Shown piece by piece: positions 1 to 41,092 of a stretch of DNA of 64,000 bases. The notes beneath the pieces were generated by a model. The model saw nothing but the letters and a program-made list of their open reading frames with translations, was not told the origin of the DNA and ran no database searches. Source of the DNA: Mariprofundus sp. NF (GTDB lineage: Bacteria; Pseudomonadota; Zetaproteobacteria; Mariprofundales; Mariprofundaceae); contig NZ_VWNC01000007.1 in the NCBI RefSeq assembly GCF_013387455.1, positions 62,001 through 126,000 of the forward strand. Direction: 5' to 3'. Numbering within the stretch: the stretch's first letter is position 1; the number at the start of each line of letters is the position of its first letter. The translations under genes were made by a program, and so were the position numbers.

Positions 1-300
1 TAATCCTCCCAGCGATGCTCTATTATTCGCTTGTTCTCCGACGGGAGTGATCACGACTTCTGCACGATAAATGTTTGGCAGGCTGCGCGCATAAACAACG
101 GCCAGCACTGTAGCCAAAACAACCATGCCGATAATCAGCCACTTTTTCCTCCAGAGCATCTTCCAATACTCCAGCAGATCAATCCCCTCATTATCCTGCA
201 CACCATACATAGCGGCAAGTAATCGGGGGTCTAAGGGTGGAACAGTCGATTGATCAGGTTGCTGGTCACTTTGTGGACGTTCTATTTTTACATCAGGCAT
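1..300 (-). CDS. Wzz-type chain-length determinant, N-terminal part (cut by window edge)
   Basis: One hundred codons are visible before the frame runs off the window. A short proline-rich cytoplasmic leader is followed by the sequence LEYWKMLWRKKW, a membrane segment at about residues 54-72, and the start of a periplasmic region (YRAEVVITP). This is the N-terminal pattern of the Wzz/chain-length determinant family, whose members control polysaccharide chain length in the inner membrane and, in some systems, carry a C-terminal tyrosine kinase. That end lies outside the window. The ATG at 300 shares its A with the TGA of the upstream SLBB gene, so the two are translationally coupled. The pairing with an export protein supports a role in exopolysaccharide assembly. 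Confidence 0.85.
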   Translation of the reverse strand, partial: MPDVKIERPQSDQQPDQSTVPPLDPRLLAAMYGVQDNEGIDLLEYWKMLWRKKWLIIGMVVLATVLAVVYARSLPNIYRAEVVITPVGEQANNRASLGGL

Positions 301-3110
301 CAGAGAACACCCAGTGCGACCATGGATGCCGTAAATATTGCCGTCTGCATCAACACTTTTGACCAGTCGAGTGCACTATCAAGTGCATTAAACGTCTCTA
401 ACTTTTGTGGTACAACTACAGTATCTCCGGGATAAATTTCACTATTACTTCGCCACCCACTACCAGACTCCACGTATCCATTGGCCCTGATAATATACGC
501 TCTGGAATTATCAGCCATTGCAGTCATACCTCCGGCAAGATCAATCAAATCATCTTTATCCATATTCTGTCGATAAAGCATGGCCGTCTGATTATACACC
601 TCTCCCATAACCATTACCTGATCCGGACGTTTCGGAATAAGTAAAGTATCTCCATCAATAAGCTTGAGAGTAGATCCTGCTCTTAGTTTTCCTTTGTTAT
701 CCATATCGATTAACAAACGGCCTTGCGGTTTAAGGTCTAGAAGAGCCTCAAGTACGTTTTCAGCACTCGAAAGCCCACGCTGCTTTTCGGCAAGAATTTT
801 GGGATCATTTATAGAACTATAGGCTGTTTCCATCTGGGCTATCTCGCGCTGCAGACGAGTTGCTGCCTCCTTCATCTGCTTACTCTGCTCTTCTTTAATT
901 GATTCTCTGGTGAAAATAGCAGCCTGCACATAAGCACTATCCGTTAATCCACCCGCTCGCTGCAGTAGTTGCTCAATGGTTTCCCCATTTTCAATCGTAT
1001 AGACGCCAGGGAATTTCACCTCTCCTTTCAGCTCCACCTGCTCTGAAGGTCGCCAGTTGCTGATGGAGCGCACCATCAGCACATCATCAGGAAGCAAAAC
1101 AACATTTGCTTTGGCATCTCCTGACAGCGCCTCTGCCAGATTAACCACAACATGTTTTGTTTTTCTTACATCGTCTTGATTAACCTCATATCTGGTAAGC
1201 TCGGCCTGTTTTAGGTAAGCCTCTTCTTTCGGACCACCAGCGGCCATCAGAAGATCGGCAATCCGCATGTTTTTACCAAGAGGATACTCACCCTCATATT
1301 GAATCGCGCCCTGGATAGTTACACTTGCCATCTGCCGCATGGCCTTATTCGAAAGAACAAAAATCTTATCGCCAGCAAGCAGGAGAGGGTTTTCTGACTG
1401 AAAACCACTGTGCAACATCTCACCAAGAGGCGGCTGAAGAATGGTTATCTCTCCACTGAGTGGATTGGCTCGTTGAATAATCAGGTAATCACGGAATGCA
1501 GATGGAAGAAGATCGGCTTCTGAGGCGATAAGATCAGAAAGATGCATATCATCTTTCAATCCGAAAGCTCCAGGACGCTTCACATGCCCGCCTAGGTGTA
1601 CCAAATCCTGTTTAATTCCTGGCACAGGATAGACAAGCATCAGATCACCATCTTTAGTAAGGTCAGCTTTCTTCACTGTAAGATCCAGATCAAGCAGCGA
1701 GCTATTCCCTGCTTTCGTAATCCGATCAATCTGAACATGGCGAACATCGGCTGTAGCCAGCGTTCCTCCGGCCAGTTTTAAAACATCGCTGGTACGATAG
1801 GAGCGTCCCTTCTTCAACTCATAAATACCCGGTCTTACAACTTCACCAGCCACGCCGATAACCTGGCCAATCGGAGGGACAAATACGACATCTCCGGGCT
1901 GTAGTCTCACATCATGCTGGCTGTCACCTTTAAGTAGAAAGTCATAGAGATCAAGTTCTGCCACATTTTTACCACTTCGTTTCAGAACCACATGGCGCAA
2001 ACTACCCTTTTTACTTATACCACCTGAGACAAACAATGCATTAGAGATCGTGGAAAGACCACTGACAAGATAAGAGCCGGGGTTATTTACATCACCGAGA
2101 ACAAACACACGCATAGAGCGCAGTCGCCCCATAGAAACAGACCCCGTTGCACCAATTATATGCTGATGAATCTTTTCAGCGATCAGCGCCTTAACCTGCA
2201 TAAAGCTCTGACCTGCTACACTTAGTGGTCCAATAGGAGGAAGTTCAATCACCCCTTCACGGTCAACCACCAGTTCAAGGCTATCATCTCTGCTGCCATA
2301 CAGTTGTACGGAAATCTCGTCACCCGGTCCTAGAATGTATTCTGGGGGAATGGGGATCTCTGAAGCTGGCTCAAAGGTGGTTGGCGTTCCTGCGAACAGG
2401 TTGTATCCATACTGGAGCAGCTCATTACTCACCTTAACCTTTGTCATTGCTTCATTAAGCTCATCGTTCCAAACAGTTTGTAAACGCTTCCTCTCAGTTA
2501 AATTAACCTTGCGCTGAGGCTGGGATTCTAGCTCTCCCTTCCAAGCTGATTGCAAGCGATCATCAATATTAATGTACTCATTATCAGCATCACGCGACTC
2601 TCTGGTATCAGCATCACGCGACTCTCTGGTATCAGCATCACGCGACTCTCTGGTATCAGCATCACGCGACTCTCTGGTATCAGCATCACGCGACTCTCTG
2701 GTATCAGCATCACGCGACTCTCTGGTATCAGTATCACGCGACTCTCTGGCATCAGTATCACGCGACTCTCTGGCATCAGTATCACGCGATTGCCTGATGT
2801 TTTCGACAAATGAGGCAAATCTATTTAATCGATCATGCATTGATCGTTCAATCGAACTTGGTTCAGACAGTAGTTCAACATCAAATGGCTCAACTGAAGG
2901 TTTTGACTGCTGTGACCCCTGCTGATCACGACCAGTATCCCGTGTGTTATCACCGTTAAAGCCTGCCTCTCTAGCCAAGGTTTTCTGATCCTTCGTTGAA
3001 AGCGAATTGGCCATCTTCAACTGTTCATCCAGTGCGGCTGCACTGACAGTGGCAGGAACAGCGATCGCACCGATAAGCAGAAACATTAGAACTTTACTCA
3101 AATGACTCAT
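300..3110 (-). CDS. Wza-like polysaccharide export protein with SLBB domains
   Basis: A 936-residue exported protein with a signal peptide at about residues 1-25. A polysaccharide export (Poly_export) domain begins near residue 255 (YILGPGDEISVQLYG), followed by several SLBB-like repeats recognisable by GxVxxPGxY signatures (GDVNNPGSYLVSG, GEVVRPGIYELKKG, GEVKFPGVYTIENG). A hydrophobic C-terminal stretch ends the protein. It should form the outer-membrane or periplasmic exit channel for polysaccharide. It is much longer than E. coli Wza (about 380 residues), as is common for multi-SLBB versions. Residues about 105-176 are nine copies of an octapeptide of the type ESRDADTR, highly charged and probably disordered. 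The gene sits downstream of ugd and is coupled to the Wzz-type gene. Confidence 0.9.
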   Translation of the reverse strand: MSHLSKVLMFLLIGAIAVPATVSAAALDEQLKMANSLSTKDQKTLAREAGFNGDNTRDTGRDQQGSQQSKPSVEPFDVELLSEPSSIERSMHDRLNRFASFVENIRQSRDTDARESRDTDARESRDTDTRESRDADTRESRDADTRESRDADTRESRDADTRESRDADTRESRDADNEYINIDDRLQSAWKGELESQPQRKVNLTERKRLQTVWNDELNEAMTKVKVSNELLQYGYNLFAGTPTTFEPASEIPIPPEYILGPGDEISVQLYGSRDDSLELVVDREGVIELPPIGPLSVAGQSFMQVKALIAEKIHQHIIGATGSVSMGRLRSMRVFVLGDVNNPGSYLVSGLSTISNALFVSGGISKKGSLRHVVLKRSGKNVAELDLYDFLLKGDSQHDVRLQPGDVVFVPPIGQVIGVAGEVVRPGIYELKKGRSYRTSDVLKLAGGTLATADVRHVQIDRITKAGNSSLLDLDLTVKKADLTKDGDLMLVYPVPGIKQDLVHLGGHVKRPGAFGLKDDMHLSDLIASEADLLPSAFRDYLIIQRANPLSGEITILQPPLGEMLHSGFQSENPLLLAGDKIFVLSNKAMRQMASVTIQGAIQYEGEYPLGKNMRIADLLMAAGGPKEEAYLKQAELTRYEVNQDDVRKTKHVVVNLAEALSGDAKANVVLLPDDVLMVRSISNWRPSEQVELKGEVKFPGVYTIENGETIEQLLQRAGGLTDSAYVQAAIFTRESIKEEQSKQMKEAATRLQREIAQMETAYSSINDPKILAEKQRGLSSAENVLEALLDLKPQGRLLIDMDNKGKLRAGSTLKLIDGDTLLIPKRPDQVMVMGEVYNQTAMLYRQNMDKDDLIDLAGGMTAMADNSRAYIIRANGYVESGSGWRSNSEIYPGDTVVVPQKLETFNALDSALDWSKVLMQTAIFTASMVALGVL
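2583..2798. repeat. 24-bp minisatellite, nine tandem units
   Basis: Nine head-to-tail 24-bp units run from 2583 to 2798. Five or six are identical, and the last three carry a few changes (gcatca to gtatca, ggt to ggc, and a diverged last unit). The period is a multiple of three, so the unit encodes an octapeptide (ESRDADTR/ESRDTDAR) in the SLBB export protein. It also leaves long open frames on both strands, which are artefacts. There are no spacers between units, so this is not CRISPR. Such arrays expand and contract by slippage, and the length probably varies between strains. Confidence 0.95.
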
Positions 3111-24849: not shown

Positions 24850-24878
24850 TTGACACGTCATATAGCTGCGCGTAAATT
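24850..24878 (+). promoter_or_regulatory. Sigma-70 promoter of the Roadblock cluster
   Basis: Consensus -35 TTGACA at 24850-24855, exactly 17 bases, then TAAATT at 24873-24878. The predicted start of transcription is near 24885, leaving a leader of about 30 bases before the AGGGGG site and the proposed ATT start at 24915. Confidence 0.75.
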
Positions 24879-24914
24879 CAGGTCGAATTGCATTATTTTA
24901 CAGGGGGATAGGTC

Positions 24915-25295
24915 ATTTCTCTTCATACTGAGCTTGAACAGCTTCGTCAGGAAAAGAAGCTTATTTTCATCACCGTTGCCAATGATGAAGGGTTGGTCAT
25001 GGCTGAAACCGGTGAATGCCCCGAAGAGGATTTTTCTGCCTACTCATCATCGATGATGGAAACCGCCCGCAAAGTTGTCGAATCAGGCGATCTCGGCGAA
25101 CAGGTCTGCAGTGCTCTGGTGCTGAAAAATGGCCGCATGCTGATCATGCATGAAGCAGCTGTCGGTGATCAGTTCATTTACTTATCGATTTTGTGTAGCA
25201 GAGTTCCCGCTGGCATGCAGAATATGATCAAAGAGATCGTCAGCTGTGTTGCCAGAACCCTGTTGGGGAATAGTTATCAGGAGCCTAATCGTTGA
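24915..25295 (+). CDS. Roadblock/LC7 domain protein A, apparent AUU start
   Basis: A 126-residue Roadblock/LC7-family protein, a fold that regulates or scaffolds small Ras-like GTPases. Its core pattern is ITVANDEGLVMAETG, then SALVLKNGRMLIMHE, then a C-terminal helix. It is closely related to the protein at 40736-41092, and similarity begins right at ISLHTELEQLRQE. An in-frame TAG at 24909 precludes any earlier start, and no ATG, GTG or TTG occurs before the interior TTG/ATG at 24990. The ATT at 24915 lies 7 bases after AGGGGG. It begins a run of overlapping Roadblock genes behind a strong promoter. Confidence 0.85.
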   Translation: MSLHTELEQLRQEKKLIFITVANDEGLVMAETGECPEEDFSAYSSSMMETARKVVESGDLGEQVCSALVLKNGRMLIMHEAAVGDQFIYLSILCSRVPAGMQNMIKEIVSCVARTLLGNSYQEPNR

Positions 25296-25774
25296 GTAAT
25301 TATAAAGAAGCCTGCCGTCGTGAGCTTGAACAACTGGTTGAGCGTGAATATCACCTTGATGCGGCACTGCTCTGCACCTCTGACGGTCTTCCAGTCGCTT
25401 ATGCTTCATCTGCCGACATCGAGGCGGATGCTCTTTCTGCGATGTGTTCATCGATGCTCTCACTCGGTGATGCACTCGCCATTCAGGGCGATGATGATGG
25501 CTGTATCCAGGTGGTTACCCAGTCAAAAAATCAGACTGTGGCACTGATCCATGCCGGCAGCGATATGCTGCTGGCGCTCATCGGTGCCAGAGACCTTAAA
25601 CTCGGCATGCTGCTCGGCCATGCCCGTAAAGAGGTGGATATCATTCTTGAACTGATGAACAAGCAGCATCAAGAGGAGCAGGTTCAGGAGCAGCAGAAAG
25701 CGCCTGAACAGAGACAACCGGCCATGCTGGAAGAGCTGGTTAAACGCGTCATGCAAGAAGCACAAAACAGATAA
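25292..25774 (+). CDS. Roadblock/LC7 domain protein B
   Basis: A 160-residue protein starting at TTG (25292), which overlaps the TGA of the preceding gene, with cagga upstream. Residues about 1-115 form the Roadblock domain: HLDAALLCTSDGLPVAYAS, MLSLGDALA, TVALIHAGSDMLLALIGA. A Gln/Glu-rich coiled-coil-like tail follows (KQHQEEQVQEQQK), ending in a short helix (MLEELVKRVMQEA). The tail is absent from the other Roadblock proteins here and may mediate a partner contact. It is followed 10 bp later by a third family member. Confidence 0.88.
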   Translation: MSNYKEACRRELEQLVEREYHLDAALLCTSDGLPVAYASSADIEADALSAMCSSMLSLGDALAIQGDDDGCIQVVTQSKNQTVALIHAGSDMLLALIGARDLKLGMLLGHARKEVDIILELMNKQHQEEQVQEQQKAPEQRQPAMLEELVKRVMQEAQNR

Positions 25775-25784
25775 CAGGAAGTTA

Positions 25785-26192
25785 ATGATGGATATGAATC
25801 AGACCCTTGAAAAGCTGGTAGGTGAACTCGAAGGCGCACTTGCTGCTGCTGTTGTTGATCTGAATAACGGTCTGTTACTCGGTGCTCACCATAACGTCCC
25901 CTACTTTACGCAATCCTACGTTGATGCTGTTGGCGCTGCCGCTGTAGATATGTTCAGAGGCAAAACTATCACTGCGGTTGAAGCGATGATGGCAGCCCAG
26001 CGTGGCGAAGAGATCAAATACCATATCAAAGAGATTCAGATGACCACCGATGGCACCTACCATTTCATGGCGGTGGTACCGGAGAAACCTGACTACCTGC
26101 TAATTCTGGTGACCCGCACTACCATCAATCTCGGTTCCGGCTGGATGGCGACCCGCTCAGCACTCGCTGAAGTTGCACCCAAGTGTCCTTAA
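25785..26192 (+). CDS. Roadblock/LC7 domain protein C
   Basis: A 135-residue Roadblock-type protein: a leading helix (LEKLVGELEGALA), then AAVVDLNNGLLLGAHH, a long central helix (YVDAVGAAAVDMF) and strands YHFMAVVPEKPDYLLILVT. The start is one of ATG 25785 or 25788, both after caggaag. It is the last gene of the A-B-C run. Its stop lies one base before a hairpin element that separates it from the convergent metallophosphatase gene. The target GTPase is presumably the one at 30445. Confidence 0.85.
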   Translation: MMDMNQTLEKLVGELEGALAAAVVDLNNGLLLGAHHNVPYFTQSYVDAVGAAAVDMFRGKTITAVEAMMAAQRGEEIKYHIKEIQMTTDGTYHFMAVVPEKPDYLLILVTRTTINLGSGWMATRSALAEVAPKCP

Positions 26193-26326
26193 AGCATCTT
26201 ATAGGCTTAACAAATTAGCGAACCTCTGAAAAGCTACATCCATGTAGTTTTCAGCACGCAAAGGCAAAATCGTGGTTTTGCCTTTGCTCACAAACTCTGA
26301 CTTTTTCAAAGCATCCTTAGCTTAAC
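26191..26326. repeat. Serial-hairpin element (copy 2)
   Basis: Two strong hairpins fill the gap between convergent genes. The first (26226-26254) pairs 13 bases with one bulged G around CC, with core CATCCATG. The second (26258-26287) is a perfect 12-bp stem with the loop TCGTGG. The element is bordered by imperfect direct repeats of about 20 bp: 26191-26211 and 26308-26326, both of the form AAAGCATC..TTA..GCTTAAC. The CATCCATG tip and CGTGG loop recur in the element at 51.1 kb. It may also act as a bidirectional terminator. Confidence 0.75.
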
Positions 26327-27848
26327 GCCCTGCCCTGAGACGTTGCACGATACGCTCCGGAAAGTTGTTGTCCTGCATCTCTAAAGCCACTTTTTCGATA
26401 TCATAAGGGACAGTAAACAGCTCGATTCTCATACGATCAGGATAGAAGATCGCAGCTTCAGCCCCTACCTGACCGTCGCGCGGCTGACCCACCGAGCCGG
26501 GGCAGATCAACGATGCTGAAAATGGATTCAGATCAACCTCTGCTGCGTTGATAAATGGTAACACAACACTTCCCTGCATGGCATAAACACCCTGAATATG
26601 GGAGTGCCCGTGCAGGCAGATTCGAATATCCCTGCTTCTGAGGTGTTCGAGATTCTTCTCGGCAGTCATATTGTAGACATAACCGTTAAAAAAACTTTTA
26701 TCGATCGGCGAGCCATGCACAGCCATCCACTTATCAGTACGGTGACGTACCGGCAGTGTGGCCAGCCAGGCCCGATCATCGTCATCAAGCTGCTCAATCG
26801 TCCAATCCAGCGTCCACTGTGCACTGCGACTGGCTGCAACCTTTACATCACCATGATGAGCCACGTAGTGATCATGGTTGCCACGAATGCAGCAGATGCT
26901 CTGCTCCTTAGCCAGGCGTATACATGCGGCAGGCTGCGGCCCGTAACCGACAATATCACCCAGATGCATAATCTGTTCTACACCCATCTCTGCAAAGCGT
27001 TTCAGAACACTCTCAAAGGCTGGAAGGTTGGCATGCACATCGGCAATCATCCCAATCGGCTCATCACCTGACTGCAATACCACAGCAGCAGCCTTTTTAA
27101 CCATGACGCACGATTCAACAGAGCGAAGTTCAGAGATCAATGTCTGCTTATGCATCTCAAAGCTTCCGACAAATTGATCACTCAGCCCTTCATAAACCAT
27201 ATCATCGGCAGAGGATGAATACCCCCTCAACAGAGGCTTCAGGCTTTTCCCCAGCACTTGCCACTGATCACTGTCCATCCCCAGCTCATCTGATTTCCTG
27301 AGCCAGTTAGCCAGCATAGCAGAGAAGGATGAGAAGCTATCCCACGGGTAGATATCATCATCAAGGTAGAAGAGCTGATCATCAAGCAGAGCAAAATTGG
27401 ACAGCCCTTCATCCAGCCGCTTCTCGCTGCCGGCTGCAAAGCGGCAGTAGATCGCCAGCAGGTTGGTCAGGTAGTTTAATCGCTGCTCACTGCTAAGGGT
27501 TGAAAAATCGATAGTGTGCAGCGGCTGCATACGTGGCGAGATATTGCCCACCACCCAGCCCTTTCGCTGAATCACAAACCAGCAACGCTGTGGATGATAG
27601 ATGCCGTATGCCCTCTCCTTTTCAATCTGCAGAGCGGACCATTTGTGTGCCACCTCTTCAGTTGAGAAGTTGCGTCGCTCATCAATCTTTAATACCCATG
27701 ATGCATCAGCATGAAGTTGTGTCGAAGGTTTACCGGTAAAGTCACCGCCATGTGACATATTCAATGCAGGCCCCTCAAGCAGAGATGTTATCACCTCAAT
27801 CGTGACCTTCGGAAGGCCAGAGAGCGCGCCAATAATAGAGATCGTCAT
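26322..27848 (-). CDS. Kinase-like domain fused to calcineurin-like metallophosphatase
   Basis: A 508-residue protein. The C-terminal half (from about 265) is a YfcE/DNA-repair-type metallophosphoesterase with all metal motifs: IADVHANL, GDIVGYGPQP, RGNHDHYV and CLHGHSHI. The N-terminal 250 residues match no domain I can name with certainty, but they have the marks of an APH/protein-kinase-like fold. These are WVLKID (candidate Lys54), a catalytic-loop-like DEGLSN with Asp146 and Asn151 in the correct i, i+5 spacing, and LDDD (163-165) where the metal-binding Asp is expected. The usual His before the Asp is missing. It runs against the Roadblock genes on both sides. A joint phospho-signalling role is inference. 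Confidence 0.8.
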   Translation of the reverse strand: MTISIIGALSGLPKVTIEVITSLLEGPALNMSHGGDFTGKPSTQLHADASWVLKIDERRNFSTEEVAHKWSALQIEKERAYGIYHPQRCWFVIQRKGWVVGNISPRMQPLHTIDFSTLSSEQRLNYLTNLLAIYCRFAAGSEKRLDEGLSNFALLDDQLFYLDDDIYPWDSFSSFSAMLANWLRKSDELGMDSDQWQVLGKSLKPLLRGYSSSADDMVYEGLSDQFVGSFEMHKQTLISELRSVESCVMVKKAAAVVLQSGDEPIGMIADVHANLPAFESVLKRFAEMGVEQIMHLGDIVGYGPQPAACIRLAKEQSICCIRGNHDHYVAHHGDVKVAASRSAQWTLDWTIEQLDDDDRAWLATLPVRHRTDKWMAVHGSPIDKSFFNGYVYNMTAEKNLEHLRSRDIRICLHGHSHIQGVYAMQGSVVLPFINAAEVDLNPFSASLICPGSVGQPRDGQVGAEAAIFYPDRMRIELFTVPYDIEKVALEMQDNNFPERIVQRLRAGR

Positions 27849-28030
27849 AATCCTCCCCTTGAACCGGACTATAGATGAATGCCCTGCATCAATATAGCCA
27901 GATCATGGATGATGAAAAAGCTGCACATTCAATGTACCTTTGCAGCGTTCAGAAGCACTGCTCTGTTTTTTTATGGAATCCTTATTGAAATTAGGGTTAA
28001 ATATCGCGGCTGAACATGGGAGGAGTATTG

Positions 28031-28420
28031 GTGGAAAACACATCGGAACTAAAACTGGATGTGCGACTGCAGGCAATTCTCGAAGAGACCAGAGAGATGC
28101 ATAAGCTGCACTCTCTACTGCTGGCCGATCAGAACGGGCTGCCCATTAGCCATGCAGGAAAAATTGCCCATGCAGGCATGGCAGCCATTGCACCGGAATT
28201 GATCAGGGTTGGTGATCATGCTGTTCGTCTTGGGGAATACAACAGCATCACATGCGTAGCACTTGTGCTTGAAGATAGCCATCTGATGGTCATCAAGGAC
28301 ATCGAGATCAACAACAAGCCTTTTGTACTGGTGATGGATACGGCAACCGTTCCCAGAGGCATTCGCAAGCTGATCAGAGAGTTGAGGGACCGCTTAGCTT
28401 TTGCCATGCATATGGAGTAG
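28031..28420 (+). CDS. Roadblock/LC7 domain protein D
   Basis: A Roadblock protein of about 129 residues. A leading helix (LQAILEETREMHKLHS) is followed by LLLADQNGLPISHAG, a helix, and strands ITCVALVLEDSHLMVIKD and KPFVLVMDTA. An upstream ATG at 28016 is in frame, but the gggaggag ribosome-binding site lies inside it (28018-28025). The GTG at 28031 (5-base spacing) is therefore preferred, and TTG 28028 is also possible. It opens a second plus-strand run (D, diiron protein, E) after the divergent kinase/phosphatase gene. Confidence 0.85.
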   Translation: MENTSELKLDVRLQAILEETREMHKLHSLLLADQNGLPISHAGKIAHAGMAAIAPELIRVGDHAVRLGEYNSITCVALVLEDSHLMVIKDIEINNKPFVLVMDTATVPRGIRKLIRELRDRLAFAMHME

Positions 28421-28472
28421 AAAATCCCCACGTAACACTTTTATGGATATACATTAAACACGGAGGAACCGA

Positions 28473-29222
28473 ATGGCAGATATTCTATTCGAAAATGAAG
28501 AGCACAGATGTGTCTTCTTTGAGGACTTTACCGAGGGCGAGATGGTTTCGTCCAACCAGCATCTGATTATTCACAAAGGCAAAGGCATGCTGCTTGATCC
28601 CGGTGGGCACAAGGTTTATTCAAAAATCTTCTCTGCCATGCCCGAGCACCTGCCGCCGTCCATGCTGAAATACCTTTTTCTATCCCATCAGGACCCGGAT
28701 ATTGTTGCCTCTGTTAACGGTTGGCTGATGATTACCGATGCTGATGCCTACATGTCTGCAATCTGGCGTCGTTTTGTCGCCCACTTCGGTGTTGATGGCA
28801 GTGTCATGGATCGCATGAAGGAGATCCCTGATCAGGGTATGAAACTTGATCTGGAAGGCTGTGAGCTGATGATCATTCCGGCCCACTTCCTGCACTCATC
28901 CGGCAACTTCCATGTTTACGACCCGGTTTCAAAAATCCTCTACTCCGGTGATCTGGGAGCAGCCATTGTCGACTACCGCTTTGTTGAAGATTTCACTGCC
29001 CATGTAACCCACATGGAGGGCTTCCACAAACGTTATATGCCTACCAGTACTGCATGCAAAGCGTGGGCAGCTATGGTTCGCGATCTGGATATTGAGATTA
29101 TCGCACCCCAGCACGGCGCCATGTTTGTCGGCAAAGAGATCTGCAACCAGTTTATCGACTGGATTGAGGGACTGGAAGTGGGCGCTGACACCATGAAAGA
29201 TATCTACAAATTACCTGCATAA
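28473..29222 (+). CDS. Diiron oxygen-binding (ODP-type) metallo-beta-lactamase-fold protein
   Basis: A 249-residue protein of the flavodiiron/ODP branch of the metallo-beta-lactamase fold, without a flavodoxin domain. Metal-site motifs are in order: LFLSHQDPDI (the HxDPD variant), PAHFLHSSGN, YSGDLGAAI and APQHGAMF. In characterised relatives the site binds dioxygen and can signal to chemotaxis proteins. Here it sits between two Roadblock genes (53 bp after D, 33 bp before E), which suggests an oxygen or redox input to the GTPase module. That is inference. It has a good ggagg site. An iron-rich, microaerophilic lifestyle would fit. Confidence 0.88.
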   Translation: MADILFENEEHRCVFFEDFTEGEMVSSNQHLIIHKGKGMLLDPGGHKVYSKIFSAMPEHLPPSMLKYLFLSHQDPDIVASVNGWLMITDADAYMSAIWRRFVAHFGVDGSVMDRMKEIPDQGMKLDLEGCELMIIPAHFLHSSGNFHVYDPVSKILYSGDLGAAIVDYRFVEDFTAHVTHMEGFHKRYMPTSTACKAWAAMVRDLDIEIIAPQHGAMFVGKEICNQFIDWIEGLEVGADTMKDIYKLPA

Positions 29223-29255
29223 ACCTATTACTATAATTATTGAGAGGAGAGAGAG

Positions 29256-29621
29256 ATGGCAACAAAACAGGATAGAATTAACAGTGTTCTGGATGAACTG
29301 AAAATGGCCACATCGGACATTCAGGGTGCAGGTGTACTCAGCCCGGACGGCATGATGATTGCAGATAAACTCGGTGGTACTCAGGGTGATGCTGCAGCTG
29401 CCATGGGTGCTGCACTTGGCAGCCTTGCCAAACGTGTGACCGATACGCTCAAGGTCGGAGACTTTCAGGAGGTGAATATTCGCGGTTCTAATGCGGGTAT
29501 TCTGCTGTTTGATATTGAACATCGCGCCTCAATGATTGTCACCGTTTCTCAAGGCGCCAATCTTGGCCTGGTCTTCCTTGAAGCCCGAGAGGCACAGAGC
29601 AAACTGGGACAGATTCTGTAA
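29256..29621 (+). CDS. Roadblock/LC7 domain protein E (MglB-like)
   Basis: A 121-residue protein with the canonical Roadblock layout: leading helix (RINSVLDELKMAT), GAGVLSPDGMMIADKLG, helix AAAMGAALGSLAKR, strands FQEVNIRGSNAGILLFDI and ASMIVTVSQGANLGLVFLEA. This is the member most like MglB/CvnB-type GTPase regulators. It has a strong gagaggagag ribosome-binding site and is followed by an intrinsic terminator. A TATAAT hexamer lies at 29232-29237 in the short gap upstream, but no matching -35 is visible. Confidence 0.92.
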   Translation: MATKQDRINSVLDELKMATSDIQGAGVLSPDGMMIADKLGGTQGDAAAAMGAALGSLAKRVTDTLKVGDFQEVNIRGSNAGILLFDIEHRASMIVTVSQGANLGLVFLEAREAQSKLGQIL

Positions 29622-29632
29622 TAGAGCATCAG

Positions 29633-29659
29633 AGCCCCCAATTTCGGGGGCTTATTTTT
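29633..29659 (+). terminator. Intrinsic terminator after Roadblock E
   Basis: Perfect 7-bp GC-rich stem (AGCCCCC / GGGGGCT) with a 6-base loop followed by TATTTTTA, 12 bases after the stop codon. Ends the D-ODP-E run. Confidence 0.92.
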
Positions 29660-29750
29660 ATATGGCACTTAGTCAGTGATTATCATCCACAACAATCTGA
29701 TGATGTGATGAAAATGGTGCGCGCTTACTGACCATAAATTTAACTTTCCG

Positions 29751-29779
29751 TTTGCGGCAACCGGATCAGTCTGTATATT
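29751..29779 (+). promoter_or_regulatory. Candidate promoter of the GTPase pair
   Basis: TTTGCG (29751-29756), 17 bases, then TATATT (29774-29779), about 35 bases before the ATG at 29813. The -10 is good and the -35 is weak. Confidence 0.5.
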
Positions 29780-29812
29780 TCAAAAATTATCAGCTCTGAA
29801 GAGGATATAATA

Positions 29813-30445
29813 ATGAATTCACTCGTTTACCTCCGCCGTATGATAGTCAGCCAAAAGCCAGCCAGGGTTGATTACACGGTCGGATCAACTACGAAAAGCA
29901 TCTATTATGAGCGTGCCGGCTTTGAAGGCACTCATGATGAAGTATCCAGGAAACTCAGAGAGATTTTTGAATCCAAGTCGGTAGAGGTCATAACCAGTAG
30001 TGACTTTAACCCCATGAGTAACAAACGCGTCTTTGCTCCGCAGGCGATCGCCTCAGCGCTGGCCGGTTACACATTCAACGCAGAGATGCGCGCCTCCCTG
30101 CTCAGTTTTGCCATGCGCCTGCCGCCTCTGATTGTCCGACTCTACCCTATGCAGCGCTACGCCTTTCAGGACAACTCTACCTATATGAAGATGCATATGA
30201 TGTATCAGCACAACGGGTCACTCAGGATGCAGGGATTTATCTCCCAGGCTGAAAATACGCGTGATGAGATTATTCGTCTGCGGGTATTGATGGCGACCTA
30301 TATTCTGGGCCTGATTGCACCACTGAACTCCGGAGGCAACAGCCATACTGCAACCAGAGAGATGAGAGCTCAGAACCCTGATGCCAGACGTGGTAAGAAA
30401 GTCTCTATCTTAAGCCGAATCATCAACAGAATCAGGGGTCTATAA
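29813..30445 (+). CDS. Unknown protein coupled to small GTPase
   Basis: A 210-residue protein that I do not recognise. It has no signal peptide. A central segment (SLLSFAMRLPPLIVRLYPMQRY) is amphipathic to hydrophobic, and IIRLRVLMATYILGLIAPLNSGG could be membrane-associating. The C-terminus is very basic (KKVSILSRIINRIRG). Its stop overlaps the ATG of the GTPase gene by one base, so the two should be made together. A role as the GTPase's membrane adaptor or effector is a reasonable guess but only inference. It has its own promoter candidate after the upstream terminator. Confidence 0.75.
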   Translation: MNSLVYLRRMIVSQKPARVDYTVGSTTKSIYYERAGFEGTHDEVSRKLREIFESKSVEVITSSDFNPMSNKRVFAPQAIASALAGYTFNAEMRASLLSFAMRLPPLIVRLYPMQRYAFQDNSTYMKMHMMYQHNGSLRMQGFISQAENTRDEIIRLRVLMATYILGLIAPLNSGGNSHTATREMRAQNPDARRGKKVSILSRIINRIRGL

Positions 30446-31029
30446 TGGAAGAGAAACAGGTTGTAAAACTTGTCATCACCGGTCCGGTCAATGCCGGCAA
30501 AACCACAATGGTTCAGAACCTCAGTGACTCTCAGATTGCCGCAACCGATGTTGCCCCCTCTGATCAGGTCGCCCAACTCAAGAGCATGACCACCGTTGGT
30601 CTGGACTTCGGCATCCTTAAAATCGATGAGCACCTTGAACTGCACCTGTTCGGTACGCCGGGCCAGTCTCGCTTCAACTTTATGTGGAACATCCTCTCCA
30701 AGGGTGCCATCGGTGCGATCTTCCTTGTCGACAGTACCAGTGAAGAGTCACTGGTCGAAATGAGGAAGATGTATGATTACTATGAAGAGCATGTCGGTCT
30801 TCCCGTACTCGTTGGCGCAACCAAACAGGACCTGCCTGGTGCCAAGAATGTCGATGAGATCGCAGCTATCCTGAATCTTGGTGATGTCATGGTGGTGCCC
30901 GTTGATGCACGTGAGAAAGAGGGAAGTAAAATGCTCGCCCTCACCCTGCTCGGCAATGCACTGGTTGAAGCCAGTGCTGAGGCTGGAGAAGATGACTTTG
31001 ATGATGGCGATTATGATGATCTCTTCTAG
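30445..31029 (+). CDS. MglA-like small Ras-family GTPase
   Basis: A 194-residue GTPase with G1 GPVNAGKTT (residues 13-21), G2 threonine in MTTVGLDFG, G3 LFGTPGQ (68-74) and G4 TKQD (126-129). The TPGQ form of the DxxG motif is typical of bacterial MglA/CvnD-type GTPases partnered by Roadblock proteins. The C-terminus is an acidic tail (EDDFDDGDYDDLF), unlike MglA, and there is no lipidation motif. With five Roadblock genes just upstream it is the likely hub of a nucleotide-switch module, possibly for polarity or surface motility. Confidence 0.93.
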   Translation: MEEKQVVKLVITGPVNAGKTTMVQNLSDSQIAATDVAPSDQVAQLKSMTTVGLDFGILKIDEHLELHLFGTPGQSRFNFMWNILSKGAIGAIFLVDSTSEESLVEMRKMYDYYEEHVGLPVLVGATKQDLPGAKNVDEIAAILNLGDVMVVPVDAREKEGSKMLALTLLGNALVEASAEAGEDDFDDGDYDDLF

Positions 31030-40735: not shown

Positions 40736-41092
40736 ATCTCTATTCAACAGGAACTTGAACAGATTCGACAGGAGCATGAACTCTCCTGTGTTATCGTTAT
40801 TGATGGTGAAGGCGGTCTGATTGCTCAGGTTGGCGATCATCCTGAAGGGGAAGAGTTTGCGCTCTACTCTCCGATGGTGATGGAAACCATTCGCACCATG
40901 TCACAGGTTGGTGGCTTTGGTGAGCCTATCTGTAACGGTGTAATCCTTAAGCAGGGTAAAATCCTTATCACCCATCAGGATGTGGTGAAGGGTGAAGTGA
41001 TCTACTCATCCCTGCTGTGCAAGAAAAAGGTTCCGGCTGGTCTGCTTGATCTACTCAACAAAATCACTGCACTGGTAGAAAAAGCGATCTAA
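40736..41092 (+). CDS. Roadblock/LC7 domain protein F, apparent AUC start
   Basis: A 118-residue paralogue of protein A: ISIQQELEQIRQE, VIVIDGEGGLIAQVG, NGVILKQGKILITHQ and a C-terminal helix. An in-frame TTG at 40721 exists, but the ggaggg ribosome-binding site (40723-40728) overlaps it. The site is 7 bases before ATC 40736, the position that aligns exactly with the ATT start of protein A. If TTG is used, five residues are added. It stands apart from the main cluster, between the radical SAM gene and the convergent ald. It may be a recent copy moved with the acylation operon. Confidence 0.82.
   Translation: MSIQQELEQIRQEHELSCVIVIDGEGGLIAQVGDHPEGEEFALYSPMVMETIRTMSQVGGFGEPICNGVILKQGKILITHQDVVKGEVIYSSLLCKKKVPAGLLDLLNKITALVEKAI

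Follow-up and report, generated by a model that had tools for sequence, protein, structure and literature searches.

A conserved AUU codon as the probable translation start of a Roadblock-fold protein in Mariprofundus

Introduction

Where does translation begin in a small signalling-type gene of the iron-oxidising genus Mariprofundus whose reading frame is shut by a stop codon before any ATG, GTG or TTG is reached? Annotation pipelines take only these three codons, so that genes with other starts are truncated or missed, and experimentally established non-canonical start codons in bacteria are few. A preliminary description of a 64,000-nucleotide stretch of Mariprofundus sp. NF (the window) proposed that one such gene, here called Roadblock A, starts with AUU and that standard gene finders would deprive it of 26 residues. 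We compared the locus with its orthologues across the genus, with a paralogue in the same window (E), and with infC as an internal positive control.

Results

The start region of Roadblock A

The succession of TAG, GTC (24912-24914) and ATT that had been described is borne out by direct reading, as are the AGGGGG seven bases 5' of the ATT and the consensus promoter preceding it (Table 1). No ATG, GTG or TTG lies upstream of the first interior canonical codon, again as described, although that codon had been placed at 24990 and is in fact the TTG at 24993; the next in frame is ATG 24999. The loss of 26 residues also agrees with the open reading frame list, in which only 24993-25295 is offered.

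Table 1. Features of the Roadblock A start region, its downstream partner B and its paralogue E (positions in the window).
Feature	Position	Strand	Remarks
sigma-70-type promoter of A (predicted)	24850-24878	+	TTGACA 24850-24855, spacer 17 nt, TAAATT 24873-24878
Shine-Dalgarno AGGGGG of A	24902-24907	+	spacer to ATT 7 nt; GGAGG in several orthologues
TAG, in-frame stop	24909-24911	+	shuts the frame two codons upstream of ATT; 12/12 orthologues
ATT (AUU), probable start codon of A	24915-24917	+	ATT in 12/12 orthologues
Roadblock A, 126 aa, Roadblock/LC7 fold (model)	24915-25295	+	AF2 mean pLDDT 84.9; Foldseek top matches Roadblock3, MglB
TTG, first canonical codon in the A frame, probable gene-finder false start	24993-24995	+	Shine-Dalgarno absent (+0.3 kcal/mol)
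Roadblock B	25292-25774	+	TTG start overlaps A stop (TTGA); own Shine-Dalgarno
Paralogue E, probable ATC start	40736-41092	+	GGAGGG then 7 nt before ATC

Conservation across the genus

A protein search of 61 genomes recovered orthologues of A in 12 genomes of Mariprofundus. All 12 have ATT in the start column, TAG at −6 and nothing canonical upstream, and in none does the conserved frame hold an ATG, GTG or TTG able to serve as a start; what is conserved across species is a near-cognate codon at Shine-Dalgarno spacing. Replacement of ATT by ATG, which the preliminary description had proposed to look for, was never seen in A and was seen once in the paralogue family E. The −35 element TTGACA is likewise unchanged in 12/12, the −10 element is mostly kept, and conservation extends to the leader TTTACAGGRGGATAG...ATTTCACTTCA. 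When 84,980 genomes were scanned with the leader pattern TTTACARGRRGATAGNNNATTTC, 8 Mariprofundus/Zetaproteobacteria records were found, together with 7 single matches in unrelated phyla, a number close to chance expectation. By this leader scan the carriers of A include M. ferrooxydans PV-1, M. erugo, M. micogutta, Mariprofundus sp. EBB-1 and MAGs. Neither A nor E was found outside the genus in a profile search of 78 genomes of the class, the remoter matches being other Roadblock paralogues, and a related-locus search with the A protein as query gave no match. Within the genus, roughly half of the genomes yielded no A, two single-contig assemblies among them, one with E only (G007) and one with neither gene (G011).

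The GTC at 24912 was considered as a start and rejected, since this codon varies freely among orthologues (GTC, ATC, AGC, AAT, GCC and GAC, among others). The TAG, for its part, is invariant beyond what closing the frame would need, and may have a role in the leader.

Protein-level evidence for the N terminus

Were the default gene-finder ORF correct, translation would begin inside the frame, at TTG 24993 or ATG 24999, and the similarity upstream would be merely that of a conserved leader. Codons 2-26, however, have a pN/pS of 0.306 in the orthologue alignment, against 0.271 for codons 27-112, which indicates that they are under purifying selection at the level of the protein. Nor is the internal codon itself a stable feature, as the first one shifts among orthologues (index 26, 13, 11 and 9), and the anti-Shine-Dalgarno pairing is poor at the TTG (Table 1) and −4.6 kcal/mol at the ATG, compared with −9.4 kcal/mol at the ATT. 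Together with the loss of fold elements described below and the ATG codons found in E, these observations make an internal start very improbable. Both a sequencing error and a pseudogene are ruled out by the 12/12 conservation and a pN/pS of 0.31; the particular error named beforehand as fatal to the proposal, one hiding an ATG or giving a false TAG, is excluded by the invariance of ATT and TAG alike.

An AF2 model of the ATT-started protein, built from an alignment of proteins of the window only (paralogues), shows the order H-E-E-H-E-E-E-H, that is, the alpha-beta-beta-alpha-beta-beta-beta-alpha arrangement of the Roadblock/LC7 fold. Helix 1 is formed by residues 3-13 and strand 1 by residues 18-23, with pLDDT of about 88-93 over residues 1-26, and according to the model a start at 24993 would delete both elements. 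The best PDB matches from Foldseek are the archaeal Roadblock3 (9jue) and Myxococcus MglB (6hjm), with TM of about 0.7. As the Pfam Robl_LC7 profile scores 12.3 bits on A, under its gathering cut-off of 23, the name Roadblock is used here for the fold and not for Pfam family membership. A search of NCBIfam gave no match, the MglB equivalog profile included, and A is accordingly not filed as MglB, the GAP of MglA.

Paralogue E and a natural start-codon swap

The similarity between A and the paralogue at 40736 does begin at the ATT, as had been described; what had been missed is that the codon of E at this position is ATC, itself non-canonical. Among E orthologues the position holds ATC or ATT in 9 and ATG in 3, with one (G007) ambiguous. 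The ATG-bearing genes, from M. erugo, PV-1 and a third genome (G009), have the ATG at the AUH position or one codon from it and form a single clade nested within E (support 100/98); PV-1 combines AUU for A with AUG for E. Of the comparative evidence that translation starts at this position, the AUH/AUG swap is the strongest.

In the E gene of the window the only canonical codon upstream is a TTG that overlaps the Shine-Dalgarno sequence and has none of its own, the pairing energies being −9.8 kcal/mol at the ATC and +0.4 kcal/mol at the TTG. In three other E orthologues (L015, L016 and L023) the open frame also contains canonical codons at positions further 5', but the Shine-Dalgarno sequence adjoins the AUH codon and not these. 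In G007 (L072), an ATG upstream of E is accompanied by an SD-like AAGAGG, and the gene may have gained an N-terminal extension that begins there. An out-of-frame ATG (40729) directly after the Shine-Dalgarno sequence of the window's E could suggest programmed frameshifting from an out-of-frame upstream start, but this ATG is present in only two E orthologues (L026 and L027) and no conserved out-of-frame start lies upstream of A, so that we give frameshifting almost no weight.

Initiation at the AUU of 24915 is supported as the sole reading that fits the orthologue conservation, the protein-level selection on codons 2-26, the placement of the Shine-Dalgarno sequence and the fold, and on these comparisons Roadblock A is almost certainly translated from it.

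Shine-Dalgarno strength and leader structure

The anti-Shine-Dalgarno duplex at A ranges from −6.7 to −10.3 kcal/mol over the 12 orthologues, and that at the AUH starts of E from −7.3 to −11.7 kcal/mol, whereas the canonical genes of the window have a median of −5.6 kcal/mol. The stronger pairing at AUH starts than at their canonical neighbours is the compensation expected for a weak codon. No unusual structure was seen in the A leader (z +0.86), and beyond the codon and its Shine-Dalgarno sequence nothing at A indicates regulation.

infC and the genomic background

In the genus, infC, which encodes IF3, starts with ATT in 20/20 genomes where it was located, mostly as AAGGAG-N6-ATT, and this strengthens a regulatory, infC-like link for A. 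As a second control pcnB was sought, and no match above the family cut-off was obtained in the genus. To estimate the background, the close relative G015 was set against a sample of the genome under study, made up of the window and about 134 kb outside it; in the 147 gene pairs so obtained, which are not a census, A and infC are the only genes whose coding similarity, taken with the Shine-Dalgarno sequence, calls for a non-canonical start. At so short an evolutionary distance many flags come from non-coding DNA that is conserved, and the filter leaned on Shine-Dalgarno strength; E, which passes it unnoticed because of an upstream TTG, was recognised in the alignment of its family. Two further candidates were discarded, a hydrolase (C2:2109) with an ATG at the expected place and a spurious ORF (C7:126362) whose ATT is CTT in G015. 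Genes neighbouring A have conserved ATG, GTG or TTG starts, and apparent upstream extensions at 29744, 30397 and 26325 were dismissed because the ATG there is common to the orthologues.

Discussion

The position and conservation of the A start are well supported by sequence; a lower yield of A, its dependence on IF3 and a role in stoichiometry are what we infer. Transcription from the TTGACA/TAAATT promoter would give an mRNA whose leader measures about 30 nt, and on it initiation at AUU 24915 would be driven by the strong Shine-Dalgarno sequence upstream. IF3 rejects initiator tRNA at codons with a third-base mismatch, so the output of A should fall to a fraction of the AUG level and be tied to the level of IF3, itself produced in the genus from an AUU-started infC. 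The AUU start thus probably holds A production low, and its purpose would likely be to limit A in proportion to the overlapping partner B as well as to the cluster's small GTPase and remaining Roadblock proteins; E, with AUC or AUU, would be restrained likewise in most species. Where B was located in orthologues, the A/B junction is overlapping or close and B starts with TTG or ATG. Because B overlaps or adjoins A and has its own Shine-Dalgarno sequence, the AUU may determine the proportion of A to B, by analogy with the proposal for sigR:rsrA.

The AUU could also be real but merely tolerated, having drifted in and been offset by a strong Shine-Dalgarno sequence, with no regulatory role. Weak starts can be rescued in this way, and the ATG reversion of E in one clade, which shows that E need not be kept low in every species, is in keeping with it. 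ATT taken alone is, moreover, weak evidence of selection on the third base, since a conserved Ile codon in the interior (column 17) is likewise ATT in 11/12 A orthologues. Against mere tolerance, a single substitution would give AUG, yet ATG occurs in 0/12 A orthologues at a synonymous divergence of around 0.55-0.73, and the A and E families have both retained AUH despite identity of only about 40%. We therefore consider tolerance unlikely, and judge that an AUU start discriminated by IF3 and keeping A scarce, as in pcnB, sigR and cvfC1/ccpN, is in all likelihood the better reading.

IF3 destabilises initiation complexes on codons other than AUG, GUG and UUG, with infC, pcnB, sigR, cvfC1 and ccpN as examples (PMC5472188; PMC13009471). 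With infC, which starts with AUU, AUC or AUA, A shares an AUU and a strong Shine-Dalgarno sequence, but infC encodes an autoregulated translation factor and A a Roadblock-fold protein with no known feedback. Escherichia coli pcnB, where AUU limits expression (Binns and Masters 2002, as cited in PMC13009471), is like A a non-translation gene, and the two proteins are unrelated. Similar in arrangement is the IF3-repressed sigR of Streptomyces, which starts with GTC or GTT and has a genus-wide non-canonical start, a strong ribosome-binding site and the first place in a gene pair; its start has been proposed to set the ratio with the downstream partner (PMC5472188), as may be the case for A. In Staphylococcus aureus the conserved near-cognate starts of cvfC1 (AUU) and ccpN (AUA) give about 10% of AUG output in poor medium and also have strong Shine-Dalgarno sequences, and cvfC1 is likewise first in its operon, though the proteins are unrelated to A (PMC13009471). 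The IF3 repression of sigR is experimental and the cvfC1 and ccpN starts were mapped by Ribo-Ret and reporters, whereas the AUU of A is supported here by sequence comparison.

Roadblock A belongs to a Roadblock-type cluster (24915-31029 and 40736-41092) that comprises A, B, D, 29256-29621 and E, and that also holds an ODP-type metallo-beta-lactamase (28473-29222, PF19583) and a small Arf/Ras-like GTPase (30445-31029). The cluster is possibly an MglA/Roadblock-like module linked to oxygen sensing. Elsewhere in the window, 300-3110 on the minus strand encodes a polysaccharide-export-like protein with a tandem ESRDADTR-type repeat near 2570-2930.

The start mechanism proposed for this small protein is known from a few other bacterial genes. 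New here are the AUU case in A and a second, paralogous case in E, with genus-wide comparative support, a natural AUG swap in the paralogue and the AUU of infC as internal control, which points to alignments as a systematic means of finding conserved AUH starts. More speculatively, A and E, as Roadblock regulators of a GTPase module, might be throttled together with infC in a small IF3-controlled regulon, such that the composition of the GTPase switch would follow the translational state of the cell. The case also makes it possible to test whether IF3 is linked to a small-GTPase/Roadblock signalling module in Mariprofundus.
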